Below the pieces are notes generated by a model. That model was not told the origin of the DNA and searched no databases. It was given only the letters and a program-made list of their open reading frames with translations. Made by a program: the position numbers and the translations under genes. A DNA stretch of 64,000 nt from Prochlorococcus sp. AG-412-P08. GTDB taxonomy: Bacteria; Cyanobacteriota; Cyanobacteriia; PCC-6307; Cyanobiaceae. Of the stretch, positions 2,327 through 15,235 are shown in pieces. Each line of letters starts with the position of its first letter. Position 1 is the stretch's first letter. The stretch spans positions 1 to 64,000 of the forward strand of contig QCLI01000003.1 of assembly GCA_003214695.1 (NCBI GenBank), written 5' to 3'.

Positions 2327-3631
2327 ATGGAGGGAAACAATCAAAAAAAAAATAACGGTGACTTTCCTATTCATGTAATTGGTATTTCAGCATCAGGTGT
2401 TTCAGATCTCTCTCAGAAACTTCAAAATATTATTCTCTCAACAAAAAAACTAGCAGGTCCATCAAGAATTTTAACCAATTTCAATAGCTGGTGGACGGAT
2501 AAAAGATCAAAGAACACACTCCCTGAATTTTTTGAAAGTGATAGACCAGTCGACTTAATTAATTGGCTTAAGAAGCAAGATCAACAAGTAGTTTTATTGG
2601 CAAGCGGAGATCCACTTTGGTATGGAATTGGGAGAGTACTTCTCCAGCATTTCCCTGCAGATAAGCTCTTCTTTCACCCTTCCCCAACATCGTTACAATT
2701 AGCATTCTCAAGATTATCCCGACCATGGCAAGACACTAATTGGATTAGCCTTCATGGTCGAGATTCTAGTCCTCTAGTTAAACTCTTACAGCAACGACCT
2801 CAAACTATTGGAATCCTTACTGATCCAAAAAAAGGAGGGGCTCAAGAAGTTAAAGACATTCTTTGTGCATCACAACTAGAGAACATTTATCAATTTTGGA
2901 TTTGTGAAAGGCTTGGACACAAAGATGAGCGCATATTTCAAATTTCTCACAAAGAAGTTTTGCCAATATTAGATCCTCTTCATCTAGTAGTTCTAATCAA
3001 AAAAAAATCAACAGTAGGCAATAGCAATGATATCCCTCTCTTTGGAATTGCAGATGGTTTTTATTTAACTCATATTGATCGGCCAAGTCTTATAACAAAA
3101 AGGGAAGTCCGTGTACAAATTCTAGCGGATCTTGAGCTTCCTGAAAATGGAGTCATCTGGGATATAGGAGCAGGAGCTGGGACAATTGGTCTAGAAGCAT
3201 TAAGAATAAGGCCAAAACTCAAGCTTCTTTCCATTGAAAAACGTATAGGTGGAAAGGAATTAATTCATGCCAATGCACAACGCCTATCAGTTTCACCAAG
3301 TAAAGTCATTGAAGCAGAAGCATTATCTCTATTGCAAGGAGGGAGAATTCCTAATGATCTTTCAAAACCAGATCGGGTAATAGTTGGTGGTGGAAGTTCT
3401 AACAAAACCGACCTTATTGAAGCAGCTATAAAGAACCTCTCGCCTAAGGGAGTCATCGTGATTCCATTGGCAACTTTAGAAAGCCTTGAAAAAATCTTAT
3501 TAATACTAAAATCAAAAGAATGCGAGTTGAAAGTTAGTCAACACCAAAACTTCAGAGGCGTAGCATTAAGTAAAGGCACTAGGCTGCATCCAATTAATCC
3601 TGTTTTCATTATTAAAGGAAAATTCAAATAG
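2327..3631 (+). CDS. cobL: Precorrin-6Y C5,15-methyltransferase (decarboxylating), CbiE-CbiT fusion
   Basis: Methylates C5 and C15 of precorrin-6Y and removes the C12 acetate carboxyl group in cobalamin synthesis. Two methyltransferase domains are visible. The N-terminal CbiE-type (tetrapyrrole methylase) domain covers about residues 14-225 with the LLASGDPLWYGIGR loop at 90-103. The C-terminal CbiT-type domain has a classical SAM-binding motif DIGAGAGTIGLE at 279-290. Length of 434 aa is as expected for a fused CobL. Prochlorococcus makes its own B12-type cofactor, and cbiB lies about 50 kb downstream. No cobalamin riboswitch is visible in the 48-base upstream gap. Divergent from the ribD operon. 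Confidence 0.93.
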   Translation: MEGNNQKKNNGDFPIHVIGISASGVSDLSQKLQNIILSTKKLAGPSRILTNFNSWWTDKRSKNTLPEFFESDRPVDLINWLKKQDQQVVLLASGDPLWYGIGRVLLQHFPADKLFFHPSPTSLQLAFSRLSRPWQDTNWISLHGRDSSPLVKLLQQRPQTIGILTDPKKGGAQEVKDILCASQLENIYQFWICERLGHKDERIFQISHKEVLPILDPLHLVVLIKKKSTVGNSNDIPLFGIADGFYLTHIDRPSLITKREVRVQILADLELPENGVIWDIGAGAGTIGLEALRIRPKLKLLSIEKRIGGKELIHANAQRLSVSPSKVIEAEALSLLQGGRIPNDLSKPDRVIVGGGSSNKTDLIEAAIKNLSPKGVIVIPLATLESLEKILLILKSKECELKVSQHQNFRGVALSKGTRLHPINPVFIIKGKFK

Positions 3632-3651
3632 GAAGGGCGCCTCAAGAAAAT

Positions 3652-4572
3652 TCAATTTTTATCTGGCTTAGCAATATGAGGCAAACCCCAGCCCAACTTG
3701 TTGCGAAGTACTTGAAAAAACTCATGATCAGATAAACGAACAAACCTTACAGGGTGACTGCTTTTTCTGATAAGGACTCTATCTTCTGGCCAGACATAAC
3801 ACCCTGCCGTTCCATCAACCACCATCATTAATCTTTCGGGCGTAGCAGGGAAAACTGTTACAGGTTCCAAATCACTAAAGACCAGTGCTCTTGATGCTAA
3901 AGAGTGAGGAGCTATTGGAGTTAGTTGAAGCACTGGACAATCTGGTGTAATCACTGGTCCACCTGCACTTAGAGAGTAAGCAGTAGAACCAGTAGGGGTA
4001 GAAAGAATCACTCCATCTGCGGAGATATCGACAGGGGCATGTCTCCCAATTGATATTTCGAAATGGCACATACTTGTAAGAGGTTCTCTGTGCAATGCCA
4101 TCTCATTTAGGCAAAGAGCCTCCCATCGCCTTTGATCTCCTCTAAAAACACTTACAACAAGGCTTGTTCTTTCTTCTATATCCCATTTTGTTGTTAAAAC
4201 CTTCTCAAGCGCTTTATCAAGATCAGGTAAATAAGTTTCTGTAAGAAAGCCTAAATGACCGGTATTTATCGTAAGAATAGGGATGCCAATTGGTGCTGTT
4301 TGTCGAGCAGCAGAAAGGACTGTTCCATCACCCCCTAAAACAATGGCTAATTCCAAAGAAGAATCAAAATCTTCTGGCACGCAGGCGTTGTAACCAAGGG
4401 TTCTCATATGTTGATCAGGGTTAGCAAATCCAACCATCCCCCCAGAGCTACTAGCCCTTATAACTTCATACCCTGATTTCTCAAACCTATTTTGAATATG
4501 AAGAGCTGTCTCGACAGAAAGCTTCTTACCATCATTAAGAATCAGTCCTAATCTAGGCACTGATAAAAACAA
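3652..4572 (-). CDS. nadK: NAD kinase
   Basis: Phosphorylates NAD to NADP. The glycine-rich catalytic motif GGDGT is at residues 80-84, followed by NTGHLGFL at 103-110, the CLNEMALHR segment near 154, and the substrate loop [18 protein letters not shown] at about 184-201. All are canonical for the PpnK/NadK family. Length of 306 aa is normal. The first conserved residues are [11 protein letters not shown], so the upstream MFLSV is short and the start could be a few codons later. Convergent with cobL (20-base gap) and transcribed from the ~86-base gap shared with pheS upstream. Cyanobacteria usually carry two NAD kinases; the other is not in this window. Confidence 0.95.
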
Positions 4573-5735: not shown

Positions 5736-6545
5736 ATGAAACCTTTGAGAATTTTAATCACTAATGATGATGGTGTTTTTGCAGAAGGGATAAGAACTCT
5801 TGCTATTGCAGCAGCAAGTAGAGGGCATGAGATTACCGTTGTGTGTCCAGATCAAGAACGCTCTGCAACTGGCCATGGACTTACTTTGCATGCCCCGATT
5901 AGAGCAGAGAGAGCTGATAAGCTTTTTGGGGAAGGCATCAAGGCATGGGGATGTAATGGAACACCTGCAGATTGCATAAAGCTTGCCTTAAATGAACTTC
6001 TTGAGAAAAGACCAGACTTAATACTTTCTGGTATAAATCATGGTCCAAATCTTGGAACAGATATTTTCTGCTCTGGGACAGTTGCTGCTGCTCTTGAAGG
6101 AACCCTTGAGAATATTCCCTCACTAGCAGTAAGCATAGCCAGCTTTCAATGGAAGAAATTTAATACTGCTGGAGAGATAGCATTAAATATTGCTGAAGAT
6201 GCATTGTCTAGAAACTGGCCGAAAAAATTGCTTCTCAATCTCAACATTCCACCATGTATCGCAACGGAAATGGGAGAAATTAAATGGACTCGACTTTCAA
6301 TTAGACAATATGAGGAACAATTCAGCAAACGCGAAGACCCTAGAGGTAACACCTATTACTGGATGGCAGGAGAAGCAGTCAAAGATATTCAATCTGCAGG
6401 AGACGGTCCAATTGAATGGCCAAGTGATGTTTCGCAAATTGAAACGAAATCACCATCTCTAACTCCTATCCAACCAGATTTGTTTTGGAGAGGAAATATT
6501 GATGATCTCCCAAAGTTAAGTTTTAGAAATCACCTTGAACGATAA
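5736..6545 (+). CDS. surE: 5'-nucleotidase SurE
   Basis: Metal-dependent nucleoside-5'-monophosphate phosphatase of the SurE family, associated with stationary-phase survival. The metal-binding acidic pair is in [13 protein letters not shown] (Asp11, Asp12). The family signatures [12 protein letters not shown] and [20 protein letters not shown] follow. Length of 269 aa is normal. The 3' end overlaps the convergent DUF3611 gene by 16 bases, so the two transcripts must be complementary at their ends. The short gap to pheS (about 70 bases) holds the divergent promoters. Confidence 0.95.
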
Positions 6546-10804: not shown

Positions 10805-11256
10805 TGAGGAAAGAATTCACCTTGGGATTTAATAGGGAAAGGATTAATTCCTTCCCTACCAGTCAAATCACTCGCTATTGCTTCAAAGGCATTCTGAACA
10901 TGATCTATATCTTCATTGGGAATCATTTTCCACTCAGTGCGGCTAGCCCAACTGATAAGCAGGAGAGCCTCTTCTGCCTCAGGGTCCCACAAGAGCTGTC
11001 TGCCAAGAAAACCCTTTTGCTTTTTCAACCATGGCTCCCAACTCTTTTGTTCAGCAATTAACCAAGCATTTCGATCTTGATTAGGAACGTGTAGTCGAAG
11101 GAACTCAACAATCGGTTGACTAGAAGGATTCAATTCGAATGAAGCAGCAGCTAATGCAACTTGTGTATTACTGAATAAAGAGATAACTACAAAAAAAAGA
11201 GCTGAAAAACAATTGATCACTCTTCTAGATAATAATGAAAATAAAAAAAGCATCAT
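10801..11256 (-). CDS. TIGR03792-type cyanobacterial protein, probably exported
   Basis: A 151-residue protein with an N-terminal hydrophobic segment at about 14-36 ([17 protein letters not shown]), ending QVALAAA like a signal peptide. The mature part contains [20 protein letters not shown] and [20 protein letters not shown], typical of the TIGR03792 family. That family has a dimeric alpha/beta-barrel look (antibiotic-monooxygenase-like fold) but no proven function. It overlaps ispF upstream and larB downstream by 4 bases each, so it is translated as part of one operon. Confidence 0.8.
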
Positions 11257-11753
11257 ATTCTTTCTAATAAGACAACCGCGTGACTGCTAATCCCCTCCTC
11301 TCTACCTTCAGGTCCAAGCAATTCATTTGTAGTTGCTTTAACGCCAACTGATTTACAGTCTATACCAATAGAATTGGCAATATTTTCACACATCAAGTTG
11401 ATATGAGGCTTTAGTTTAGGTCTTTCAGCGATAACAACAGAATCAATATTTACCACCTGCCAACCTTCTATTTTAAGCAACTCTGAAACTTTCTTTAATA
11501 AAACCAAACTGTTTGCATCCTTCCATTCAGCATTTTCTGGGGGGAAATATTTTCCAATATCTCCTAATGAGAGAGCCCCAAGCATTGCATCCATCAAGGC
11601 ATGAACAAGTACATCCGCATCGCTATGACCATCCAGACCTAATCCAGAAGGATGTTCAAGTTTCACCCCTCCAACAATTAAAGCCCTATCAGGAACCAAT
11701 CGATGAATATCATATCCGTTGCCGATGCGGAGGTTGCACTTCGAGCCAGTCAT
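11253..11753 (-). CDS. ispF: 2-C-methyl-D-erythritol 2,4-cyclodiphosphate synthase
   Basis: Forms the cyclic diphosphate intermediate of the non-mevalonate isoprenoid pathway, needed for chlorophyll phytol, carotenoids and quinones. The zinc ligands are visible: GNGYDIHRL (Asp15, His17) and [18 protein letters not shown] (His51). The C-terminus [18 protein letters not shown] is the family's CDP-binding loop. The length of 166 aa is normal. First gene of an operon with the TIGR03792 protein and larB. In related genomes I expect trmD nearby upstream; here the two are separated by about 2.7 kb of accessory DNA. Confidence 0.96.
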
Positions 11754-11852
11754 AGCAAGGGATTACAGGTAATGGATATAGGTTTGGACACCGCTGGGAT
11801 TCAACAACAACATTCAATTAAGATTAAATATCTAGTATCTTGAGCTGTTCCC

Positions 11853-11858
11853 ATTATA
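11853..11858 (-). promoter_or_regulatory. Candidate -10 box for the ispF-larB operon
   Basis: The reverse strand carries a perfect TATAAT here, inside CGCTATAATGGG, about 95 bases upstream of the ispF ATG. No good -35 element is seen at standard spacing, which is common in Prochlorococcus. The only other gene nearby, the barrel protein at 11986, is transcribed in the opposite direction, so this box best serves ispF. Confidence 0.45.
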
Positions 11859-11985
11859 GCGGAGACGATTGACTTTGAGAGAAATGTGCACGAAGAAGCA
11901 AAGTTTTAACCTTCACAAACTTATAAAAAATTTTTCTTATAGCTAAATTATTAAAGGTTATAAATTTAGCCTAAGAAATTAAAAG

Positions 11986-12672
11986 ATGAAAAGACACAAG
12001 GTCCTAAGTCTAATCAGCATATGTTCTCTTTTCCTCTTCTCTCCTTCCACAATTGCAGAAGAAAATGATAGCAAAAAAGGGGTTTATATTACTATCGGTT
12101 CAGGTTCTGCAAATATAGAAGATCAAACTTGGCTTAATAAAGATTCAGTACCTTATAAGGGTGATTTTAAGATAGATACAGGCAATTCAACTGAATTAGG
12201 ATTAGGTTATGACTTTGGTGAGAAGTATCGTTTAGAACTTACTTACCTAAAAAGTACATCTGATTACTATGGATACAATAATCATCTTGGAGAAGAAGGT
12301 GAAGCTTGGGGACCTGTAAAAGTTGAAAGTATTTTCCTAACAAGTTATAGAGATTGGTCGATTAAAGGTTCCAAGTTTTCTCCATACTTAGCAGCAGGAA
12401 TTGGTATTAGTAAAAGAGCCTTAGGTAATTTTCATCCTGATACGGGTGGATCCCATACTGCAACTCCACACCATAATATGCTTGCATATCAAATCAAAAC
12501 AGGTTTAAGTTATTTTATCAACACTAAATCTGATTTATTTTTTGAAGCAGCTTATAGAGATGCTTCTGGAACATCAACTCATGGGGTTTTTGGAGATGAT
12601 GACAATAATTTCCGCTATGAAAGAGGAGTCGCAGCTCTAGAATTTAGAACAGGTGCACGTATCAAATTATAA
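11986..12672 (+). CDS. Outer-membrane beta-barrel protein (exported, 228 aa)
   Basis: A signal peptide of about 25 residues (MKRHKVLSLISICSLFLFSP, then STIAEEN) precedes a protein made of alternating hydrophobic/polar strands. Examples are GVYITIGSGSANIE, STELGLGYDFGEKYRLELTY, SPYLAAGIGI, AYQIKTGLSYFI and DLFFEAAYRDAS, ending AALEFRTGARIKL. This is the pattern of small 8-strand outer-membrane barrels (OmpW/OmpA-like 'outer membrane beta-barrel' families). No enzymatic residues are recognised, so adhesion, small-solute passage or envelope structure are all open. It lies in the accessory interval between ispF and trmD, transcribed alone and divergent from ispF. Confidence 0.8.
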   Translation: MKRHKVLSLISICSLFLFSPSTIAEENDSKKGVYITIGSGSANIEDQTWLNKDSVPYKGDFKIDTGNSTELGLGYDFGEKYRLELTYLKSTSDYYGYNNHLGEEGEAWGPVKVESIFLTSYRDWSIKGSKFSPYLAAGIGISKRALGNFHPDTGGSHTATPHHNMLAYQIKTGLSYFINTKSDLFFEAAYRDASGTSTHGVFGDDDNNFRYERGVAALEFRTGARIKL

Positions 12673-13004
12673 GTTTTTAGATAGATTTATTAGTTATCGT
12701 AAATATATCTTTTGAGAAATTTTATTGAACTATTTACTATAAATTAGACATCATAAGTATTTATTTAGACTTTTATTATGGTTTTTCTATTTTAGAGAAG
12801 AACTCGGCGATAGAACTTTAATGATTGAGTTTGTTTGATCTGAAATCAATTTCACCAAGTACTATTTTCACGAAGAAATTAAATAAGGTTTTCTGGGATT
12901 CTTCTGTGACTAGGATTCTTTACTTTGCTGATGGTTACTCAACCTGGGATCCAACTGGGACTCTATTGTTCTATCACGTCAATCTTCAAAAGCTAGTCAT
13001 AGAA
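12673..13004. other. Low-coding spacer downstream of the barrel gene
   Basis: About 330 AT-rich bases without a supported gene. A 63-codon TTG-initiated frame crosses it (12825-13016, plus strand), but it has no start context and no recognisable motif. Its 3' end runs antisense into the trmD-tail remnant. It is most simply read as decayed or non-coding DNA within an accessory insertion. Confidence 0.5.
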
Positions 13005-13076
13005 TCAATCATCTAACCAAGGATCAGGAATGTAATATTCGTTGCCTATTCTTAACTGTGGGAAAGCTTTAGTCAT
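13005..13076 (-). pseudogene. Remnant copy of the trmD 3' end
   Basis: The reverse strand reads, from an ATG at 13076, MTKAFPQLRIGNEYYIPDPW then LDD and stop. The functional TrmD at 14438-15235 ends SLPIGSECDIPDPWLED and stop. Aligned from QLRIGNE / SLPIGSE to the stop, 11 of 17 residues agree, including the IPDPWL block and the final D-stop, and the remnant is in the same orientation as trmD. Only this tail survives; upstream sequence is not recognisably TrmD. It is interpreted as a displaced or duplicated trmD 3' end, with the methyltransferase gene sitting between the two copies. Translation as a 23-residue peptide is unlikely. Confidence 0.65.
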
Positions 13077-13248
13077 GTTTTAAGGTAGCTGGTTTGAATA
13101 GTTCCAAGCTAGAAATCACTGACTCAAAGCAATATAAATAATCCTTTGCCCTAAAACCTTTAGAAAATATTTCAGGCGAATTTCTCAAAAAAACCTTTTA
13201 AGTAACATATGAATAAATGTCAAATAGAACCTAAAGGTTTGATTATAC

Positions 13249-14232
13249 TTATTTAGTTAAAATACAATTAATTCGTCCCAAAAACAATTCATTTAAAAAG
13301 GGTACATAGGCAAAAGGAGTTAAGAGCTTGCTTAAAACTTTAAATACGAGCCATTCAGATTTTCTTCCATCCGTTAATATGGGTTTGATTTTATATTCTT
13401 TAGAAGTCCAACTCTGATTAAGAATCAATGATTTAAAGTCCTTAATAGATGTTCCATTTAAGCTAAATAACTTTTCCCAAGTCCTTAGAGGGAAAGCTAC
13501 AGGTCTATACCAATAAGAATCAGGTGCTCTTTGTTCTATTATTTCATTATAAGCTTCAGCAATTATTTCTCCTGAGAAAAGCCATTGTAATGCCTGTGCA
13601 TTTGTCACCATGCCTAAATGAGCTTCTAATGGCTGCATGTATTGAGGGAAAGCTACACATAGCTTGCCACCTTTTTTCAAAACTCTATAACATTCATTTA
13701 GGACCATTCCTAAGTCTTGAACATGTTCAAAGACATCTGTTGACACAATAAAATCCAATGAATTAGATTCATAAGGTAATTTCTCACCAAAGCCTGTTTT
13801 AAAATAAACATTGTTAGCATTAACACTTTTCGCAAATTCTTCAGAAGCAAGCTGAAATATAGGGTTTATGTCTAAACCAAACCCTTTTGATAGTTTATAC
13901 TTTTCAGTCCAAGCAGTTACACGCCCACCAGTAAAGGATCCTAAATCTAAAAGCGTTTTACCTTTAAGAGATTCCTCAGTTATTCTAGAAAAAAAATACT
14001 GTCTTATCCAGCTTATTTGGTTATTTTTCTCCCATTCATAGGAAGCTAAAGAAGATGAATATCTTACATTTCTTTGGTAATCGACTGTACCTTTGATATA
14101 TTCGTTTGTATTAAATATTTCCCACAAATGAGGATCAAGGGGGTCTGGATAAGCTGGAAATATTTCCATTATTTTCTTACATATATTTTTTCTTATTGGC
14201 ATATGAGTTAAATTAAAAGGGATTTCTATCAA
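13249..14232 (-). CDS. Class I SAM-dependent methyltransferase
   Basis: A 327-residue protein with a Methyltransf_11-type Rossmann domain. Motif I is LLDLGSFTGGR at 94-104, an acidic residue closes the next strand (GFGLDINP, 117-124), and the post-motif block IVSTDVFEHVQDLGMVLNEC runs from 162, followed by YRVLKKGGKLCVAFPQY. The N-terminal ~90 residues and C-terminal ~120 residues match no domain I know. The substrate is unknown; proteins of this shape often act in cell-surface glycan or lipid modification. It lies alone between two copies of the trmD 3' end and looks acquired. The flanking spacers are unusually long for this genome. Confidence 0.85.
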   Translation of the reverse strand: MIEIPFNLTHMPIRKNICKKIMEIFPAYPDPLDPHLWEIFNTNEYIKGTVDYQRNVRYSSSLASYEWEKNNQISWIRQYFFSRITEESLKGKTLLDLGSFTGGRVTAWTEKYKLSKGFGLDINPIFQLASEEFAKSVNANNVYFKTGFGEKLPYESNSLDFIVSTDVFEHVQDLGMVLNECYRVLKKGGKLCVAFPQYMQPLEAHLGMVTNAQALQWLFSGEIIAEAYNEIIEQRAPDSYWYRPVAFPLRTWEKLFSLNGTSIKDFKSLILNQSWTSKEYKIKPILTDGRKSEWLVFKVLSKLLTPFAYVPFLNELFLGRINCILTK

Positions 14233-14437
14233 TTATAAACATTAAAATTAATTTTTCTTGAATTTTAGCTAACAGACTCGAACTGATAACTGACTGCTCA
14301 AAACATGTCCAAATCATTATCAACGTCTTAAACCGGCTAACTTCTCACTGGTAAGAATTACTTAATTTAATTCTCAATACAGTCTGAACTCAATCTATAA
14401 CTCCCTACTTATCATTCGTTAAAAGATTGTCGGAGCC

Positions 14438-15235
14438 TCAATCCTCAAGCCAAGGGTCTGGAATGTCGCATTCGCTCCCTATTGGCAAGCTCAAGCTAAG
14501 TGAAGCAGATGAATTTTTCCTAGAATTATACGATGTCTCTTTTTCTTGAATCCATTGTTCATAAAGTTCAGGTCTTCGTGCCCTAGTTCTTAATTCCCTT
14601 TGAGTTTGTCGCCATTTCTTAATCTCTGAATGATTACCGCTTAGTAAAACCATCGGAACTTCAAGATTTCTAAACCTCGCAGGACGAGTGTACTGAGGAT
14701 GTTCAAGTAGTAAGTCTGAATGACTTTCTTCCACTAATGATTCTGAGCTTCCGATCGTCCCTGGGAGCAATCTTATAACTCCATTAATAATTGACATTGC
14801 AGCTAGTTCTCCTCCGGTCATCACAAAATCACCTAAGGAAATCTCTTCATCAGCAAGAGTTCTAATACGCTCATCAAAACCCTCATATTGACCACAAATA
14901 AAAACAAGCTGGTCATATTGTGTGGCCCAATTAAGGAATTTTTTTTGCGATGGGCGACGACCCTGTGGTGTCATCATCAACACTCTTCTCTTTGGCAAAA
15001 CAGGAATCGCGTCAAAAGCCCTGAAGAAAGGCTCAGGCTTAAGGACCATTCCGGCACCTCCGCCATATGGCTCATCGTCTACTTGGCGATAGCTGTCTTT
15101 TGTGTAATCTCTAGGATTAAAAACTCTAAGATCCGCAATTCCTGAAGACAAAGCTCTTCCAATGACACCGAGTTGAAGCAAGCTGTCAAAAGATTTAGGG
15201 AAAAGGCTCAGCACTTCAATTCGATATGTTCTCAT
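14438..15235 (-). CDS. trmD: tRNA (guanine-N1-)-methyltransferase TrmD
   Basis: Methylates G37 of tRNAs reading CUN, CCN and CGG, preventing frameshifts. The SPOUT knot region shows FICGQYEGFDERI near residue 113 and LGDFVMTGGELAAMSIING after it. The N-terminal RVFNPRDYTKDSYRQVDDEP and GGGAGMVLKPEP are also canonical. The 265-residue length includes a C-terminal extension rich in Ser that ends GSECDIPDPWLED; a degenerate copy of this ending lies 1.4 kb downstream. It starts 5 bases after the stop of era, so the two are one operon. Confidence 0.96.
   Translation of the reverse strand: MRTYRIEVLSLFPKSFDSLLQLGVIGRALSSGIADLRVFNPRDYTKDSYRQVDDEPYGGGAGMVLKPEPFFRAFDAIPVLPKRRVLMMTPQGRRPSQKKFLNWATQYDQLVFICGQYEGFDERIRTLADEEISLGDFVMTGGELAAMSIINGVIRLLPGTIGSSESLVEESHSDLLLEHPQYTRPARFRNLEVPMVLLSGNHSEIKKWRQTQRELRTRARRPELYEQWIQEKETSYNSRKNSSASLSLSLPIGSECDIPDPWLED

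Follow-up and report, generated by a model that had tools for sequence, protein, structure and literature searches.

A fused trmD–ispF gene as the probable attachment site of tandem tyrosine-recombinase elements in Prochlorococcus

Why does the end of trmD occur twice, on either side of a methyltransferase gene, in Prochlorococcus sp. AG-412-P08? The window analysed here is a stretch of 64,000 nucleotides from this genome (contig QCLI01000003.1, positions 1 to 64,000). The initial annotation proposed that foreign DNA had been inserted at the 3′ end of trmD, in the manner of islands targeted to tRNA genes. On the minus strand, trmD (14438–15235; PF01746, E = 1e-55) ends in SLPIGSECDIPDPWLED and a stop codon, and the segment 13005–13076, also on the minus strand, encodes MTKAFPQLRIGNEYYIPDPWLDD, which consists of 23 residues followed by a stop codon, as had been claimed. 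The two ends align over 72 nt of DNA without a gap, through the stop codon and beyond; the alignment scores 49, whereas 300 shuffles reached 27 at most. The DNA alignment and the shuffles rule out chance similarity, and the tail copy is homologous to the end of trmD. One methyltransferase reading frame lies between the copies, again as described (13249–14232, minus strand; PF08241, Methyltransf_11, E = 2.6e-16). Over its first 15 residues, the tail copy is as similar to the start of ispF (11701–11753) as to the end of TrmD. The window therefore contains three copies of a core sequence rather than two, and a second insert, with a reading frame at 11986–12672 on the plus strand, separates the tail copy from ispF.

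Comparison with relatives identified the interrupted gene. In the closest relative, G008, which is free of inserts, trmD and ispF form a single in-frame gene of 408 codons with both domains at full length (PF01746 and PF02542; TIGR00088 and TIGR00151 above cut-off). Joining the flanks of the window at the core (14479 to 11723) gives a TrmD–IspF protein of 408 residues, which is identical to that of G008 at 357 of the 408 positions and aligns without a gap. Both inserts therefore sit exactly within the fusion gene. Inserts at identical codons occur in many relatives. The search for ispF matches covered the family (300 genomes) and, in addition, a single genus (200 genomes). Many matches fall in open frames of 400–450 aa and are fused, and others fall in short frames and are split; of the roughly 150 matches listed for the single genus, about 47 were counted by hand as split. 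Fused and split states coexist within single genera, including the genus of the window, and a TrmD and IspF tree of 91 genomes requires at least 11 changes of state, a tally in which two loci where trmD and ispF only overlap (L084 and L092) were counted as not fused. In another genome of the same family, G030, about 30 kb separates trmD from ispF on a single contig (C9; L080 and L081), which may reflect a large insert or a rearrangement. In three genomes with fragmented assemblies (L053 in G006, L056 in G191 and L066 in G110), the contig breaks off no more than a few hundred bases ahead of ispF, which might be expected if core repeats disturbed assembly.

Comparison of occupied with empty sites places the predicted exchange in GGTAATG. 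Empty sites of one genus have the sequence CAATTCATGAAATTT AGAATA GGTAATG GATACGATATTCAC. On the left of occupied sites, the native flank continues up to the core and is followed by AATACGACATTTACCCTGATTGG TAG, which encodes EYDIYPDW and a stop. On the right, the sequence begins with ATGACN, proceeds through CCACAGTTT CGTATT GGTAATG and then enters the native GATACGATATTCAC. The 7-bp GGTAATG is the sole block common to both flanks. On the element, a 6-bp inverted repeat (CGTATT and AATACG) borders this block; of 23 left halves, 13 have the exact sequence AATACG, and the right halves show variation around CGYATY. An overlap of 7 bp set between inverted binding sites is a standard arrangement for tyrosine recombinases. 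The short overlap, the inverted core-binding repeats and the attL/attR hybrids that characterise tyrosine-recombinase elements are all present. The core is located directly ahead of the codons for D-x-H of IspF, which binds a metal ion, and the target may be so strongly conserved because these next codons encode the metal-binding residues.

The left end of the element provides TrmD with a stop (EYDIYPDW), and the right end provides IspF with a start (MT....PQF). Right ends carry paired TNNCAG repeats, 11 bp apart, at −46/−47 from the ispF start codon, with a chance expectation of about 4% per end, and left ends carry similar repeat pairs about 30–55 nt past the stop. These pairs are putative arm-type binding sites. 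Within modules, left arm repeats seemed by eye to match the right ones, but the match had no statistical significance (391 of 5000 permutations; n = 9). The right end of the element is conserved across about 100 bp. A right-end block resembling C-AAACC-ATTG-TATGACT, about 20 nt ahead of the ispF start (11754–11775 in the window), is kept across distant clades and is not a usual ribosome-binding site.

In the window, the last 13 or so codons of trmD, IGSECDIPDPWLED and a stop, represent the putative element-derived left end (attL), and the linker up to SLP is native, as it aligned as far as the core with the fusion gene of G008. The 7-bp core at this site, GGGAGCG (14473–14479, minus strand), is an eroded copy of GGNAAYG. 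Module 1 (13077–14437, minus strand) is bounded by core copies, has eroded ends and carries the methyltransferase as cargo; no recombinase match was found in it. Near its right end, close to the position of the right arm in other modules, lies an eroded and weak candidate arm repeat, GAGTCAGTGATTTCTAG (13109–13125, minus strand). The segment 13005–13076 has an ispF-type start at one end and a TrmD-type tail at the other. From its sequence, it is a predicted hybrid attachment site, in which MTKAFPQL is the right end of module 1, RIGN is the core (GGCAACG, 13040–13046, minus strand) and EYYIPDPWLDD with its stop is the left end of module 2. Hybrids of the same order (right end, core, left end) were found in five other genomes (L043, L067, L072, L042 and L136), and that of L072 reads MTRKSPQLRIGNEYDIYPDW followed by a stop. 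Such a hybrid is the expected leftover of a second integration into an existing scar.

Module 2 (11754–13004) extends from the hybrid site to the ispF start and carries a predicted outer-membrane beta-barrel protein (11986–12672, plus strand; PF13505, E = 4e-7). Its left arm repeats are TCCCAG and TCCCAG with a spacing of 11 bp (12944–12961, minus strand), and its right arm repeats are TCCCAG and TCCAAA (11783–11802, minus strand), about 46 nt ahead of the ispF start; TCCCAG is present at both ends. The attR (11701–11753, minus strand) is composed of the element-supplied ispF start MTGSKCNL, the core GGCAACG (11717–11723, minus strand) and the native codons for GYDIHR. The ispF gene (11253–11753, minus strand), which is now separate, and the ispF part of the 408-aa fusion are orthologous. 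The ends of module 2 are better preserved than those of module 1, and module 2, with the outer-membrane protein, is therefore probably younger than module 1, with the methyltransferase.

The recombinase gene is absent from the genome of the window, and both modules are therefore non-autonomous now. Because neither module has a recombinase and the ends of module 1 are eroded, the origin of the window modules rests on relatives. Most modules at the trmD–ispF site have no recombinase gene, and complete tyrosine-recombinase genes were found there in two genomes only. In G301 (L072), the module adjoining ispF is 4.0 kb long, and one of its products, a protein of 524 aa, has a phage-integrase domain (PF00589). 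In G418 (L123; C5:43500–51000), the sole module is 3.8 kb long and encodes a 505-aa relative, which is 46% identical to the protein of G301 and matches a PHROG integrase family (E = 1e-20). The recombinase genes begin at most about 80 nt past the TrmD-type stop, just downstream of the left core. Truncated 5′ ends of recombinase genes are located at the same place in L124, L125, L135, L139, L146 and L162, and a remnant of the 3′ end is present in L043. In total, nine loci have a recombinase gene or remnant at the site (two complete and at least seven remnants). When 200 genomes were searched with a recombinase profile, the two best matches fell inside trmD–ispF intervals, and so did partial matches in G462 and G447. 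A tyrosine recombinase encoded beside the attachment core is thus found in the family (L072 and L123), not in the window's own modules.

Recombinases related to that of the trmD–ispF site occur elsewhere in the family. G041 (Prochlorococcus sp. MIT 0701) has a 48% identical recombinase at another location, around which no att repeat was found, and its own trmD–ispF is fused. In G103 (L114; C10:40000–48000), a degraded relative lies in cargo-like DNA (3518–3763 and 6209–6295) about 2.4 kb from a tRNA-Ser gene, which is a link to tRNA-targeting islands. Neither the recombinase nor the attP pattern was found in IMG/VR or phage records, and a carrier virus was rejected on this basis. No circular form, excision product or within-strain polymorphism between empty and occupied sites was seen. 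Both modules with a complete recombinase also encode an HxH protein of 253–277 aa (L072, 11854–12687, in the trmD-forward orientation; L123, 5109–5870). The two HxH proteins are only 23% identical to each other, have no Pfam or PHROG match and have no relative among 201 genomes, and the predicted structure (pLDDT 35) is too poor for use. The HxH protein is possibly a replication or mobilisation protein.

The intervals between trmD and ispF contain FkbM-like and other methyltransferases, putative hydroxylases, sulfotransferase-like, sugar-modifying and radical-SAM-like proteins and proteins without assignment; these identities were mostly read from sequence rather than from domain searches. The contents vary between near relatives. 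The methyltransferase of the window has a 73% identical orthologue in the congener G007, in a variable stretch about 2.8 kb beyond tRNA-Met.

Our data indicate that the window very probably contains two tandem insertions of tyrosine-recombinase integrative elements, for which the trmD–ispF fusion would be the attB. The attB would consist of the codons for residues IGNG of IspF, immediately upstream of the metal-binding D-x-H codons. The recombinase, encoded beside the left end of intact members, would exchange strands within the 7-bp overlap GGNAAYG. Integration would split the fusion and leave both halves intact, the left end giving TrmD a short tail and a stop and the right end giving IspF a start codon and 7–9 codons, and both separated enzymes would presumably function. 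The cargo is mainly methyltransferases, surface-polymer enzymes and hydroxylases, and here also the outer-membrane protein. A second element may then integrate into either scar, so that tandem modules are parted by a hybrid site.

Other explanations account for part of these observations. An island at the 3′ end of trmD, with the old ending displaced to 13005–13076 and a new one supplied, agrees with the DNA homology of the tails, and the insert is indeed the source of the present TrmD ending. However, insert-free relatives have the fusion and no separate trmD ending that could have been displaced; an ending like QLRIGNEYYIPDPWLDD was expected in such relatives, but in G008 TrmD runs into IspF instead. 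In addition, the tail copy opens with an ispF-type start and a third copy of the core stands at the ispF start. The fused relatives exclude the 3′ end of trmD as the target; the actual target is the set of ispF 5′ codons (RIGNGYDI) within the trmD–ispF fusion. The island model in this form therefore has next to no probability, but the general idea of site-specific insertion of foreign DNA stands, and so does its comparison with tRNA-targeted islands. It is also very improbable that separate genes are the ancestral state and that the fusion arises repeatedly by deletion between similar trmD-end and ispF-start sequences. More distant cyanobacteria do appear, from frame lengths, to have separate genes, and precise excision would also yield a fusion, so that the direction of change at single nodes is ambiguous. 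Nevertheless, the similarity between TrmD tail and ispF start is best explained by duplication of an att site. TrmD tails at occupied sites are nearly identical to the fused linker as far as the core, beyond which recombinase-adjacent sequence begins, and near relatives differ in what the interval contains.

Cassettes might instead be swapped without a dedicated recombinase, by homologous recombination between core repeats or flanking core genes. This would fit the lack of a recombinase gene in most modules and the presence of the methyltransferase in another island of a congener, and the conserved right end could act as homology. In contrast, nine loci have the recombinase gene or a remnant at the same place beside the core, and the exchange point falls within a 7-bp block that inverted repeats flank on the element. 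At about 20 bp, moreover, the core repeats offer little length for homologous recombination. We therefore regard such swapping as unlikely and favour tyrosine-recombinase integration into the fusion.

The tail added to TrmD may itself be under selection. At 76 split loci, the tail ends in YPDW in 23, DPWxD in 9 and WxWD[ILM] in 9. The other 35, about half, have no recognisable tail, which counts against the integration model; some of these tail-less loci are outgroups that perhaps were never fused. The codons of the 23 YPDW loci vary at synonymous positions only (TAC/TAT, CCA/CCT/CCC and GAT/GAC), and 60 of 184 residues are changed in the core that precedes the motif. Tails that match YPDW at exactly three of its four residues do not occur. 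The constancy of these residues suggests selection on the peptide, an argument qualified by the fact that the group was picked by the motif itself. Tails rich in Trp and Asp (YPDW, DPWWD and WFWDM) recur across left-end types, for example in L034, L067, L134 and L146, and persist beside an eroded core. We offer as a tentative idea, somewhat less probable than its opposite, that the element-added tail (YPDW, DPWWD/DPWFDD or WFWD[ILM]) is selected as part of the host enzyme and that the element might act as a natural switch between a bifunctional TrmD–IspF and two free enzymes.

Several known systems share features with these elements. In dusA islands, a tyrosine recombinase integrates the element near the 5′ end of a protein gene and the element gives a new 5′ end (PMC4482086). 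The trmD–ispF element likewise supplies a new 5′ end (MT...PQF to ispF). Its target, however, is not the 5′ end of dusA but the ispF start in a two-enzyme fusion, and it must also give the upstream protein a stop; moreover, the trmD–ispF elements are found in other hosts as small cassettes in tandem. Tycheposons of Prochlorococcus are described as elements of 4–200 kb at seven tRNA genes, with the same hosts and the same combination of tyrosine recombinase and cargo (PMC10872708). The recombinase remnant near tRNA-Ser in G103 and the orthologue of the window methyltransferase beyond tRNA-Met in G007 are further likenesses. Unlike tycheposons as presented there, trmD–ispF elements sit in a protein gene, with the core in ispF codons rather than at a tRNA gene, and are mostly 0.2–5 kb long. 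SGI1-type islands are also site-specific islands in a tRNA-modification gene, but their target is the 3′ end of trmE, which is not a fusion gene, and they are mobilised by conjugative plasmids (PMC8409611). Integron gene cassettes are similar in that small single-gene modules stand in tandem at one site with recombination sites between them. In contrast to cassettes, trmD–ispF modules have no fixed platform, and a core located within a protein gene is their site. No integron-type integrase was recognised in the intervals read. No paper linking trmD, ispF and Prochlorococcus or naming ispF as an integration site was found, which is weak evidence because the search covered few subscription papers. 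The elements would form a tyrosine-recombinase family whose target is a two-enzyme fusion gene and whose insertion separates the two essential enzymes without loss of either.

Our study points to a hotspot of integration within a protein gene of abundant marine phytoplankton, with an attachment site fixed to within 7 bp. Mobile DNA could drive the fusion and fission of two essential genes, and the site offers a route for surface-modification genes between cells outside tRNA-linked islands. The att site could become a tool for chromosomal integration in a group that is hard to engineer.
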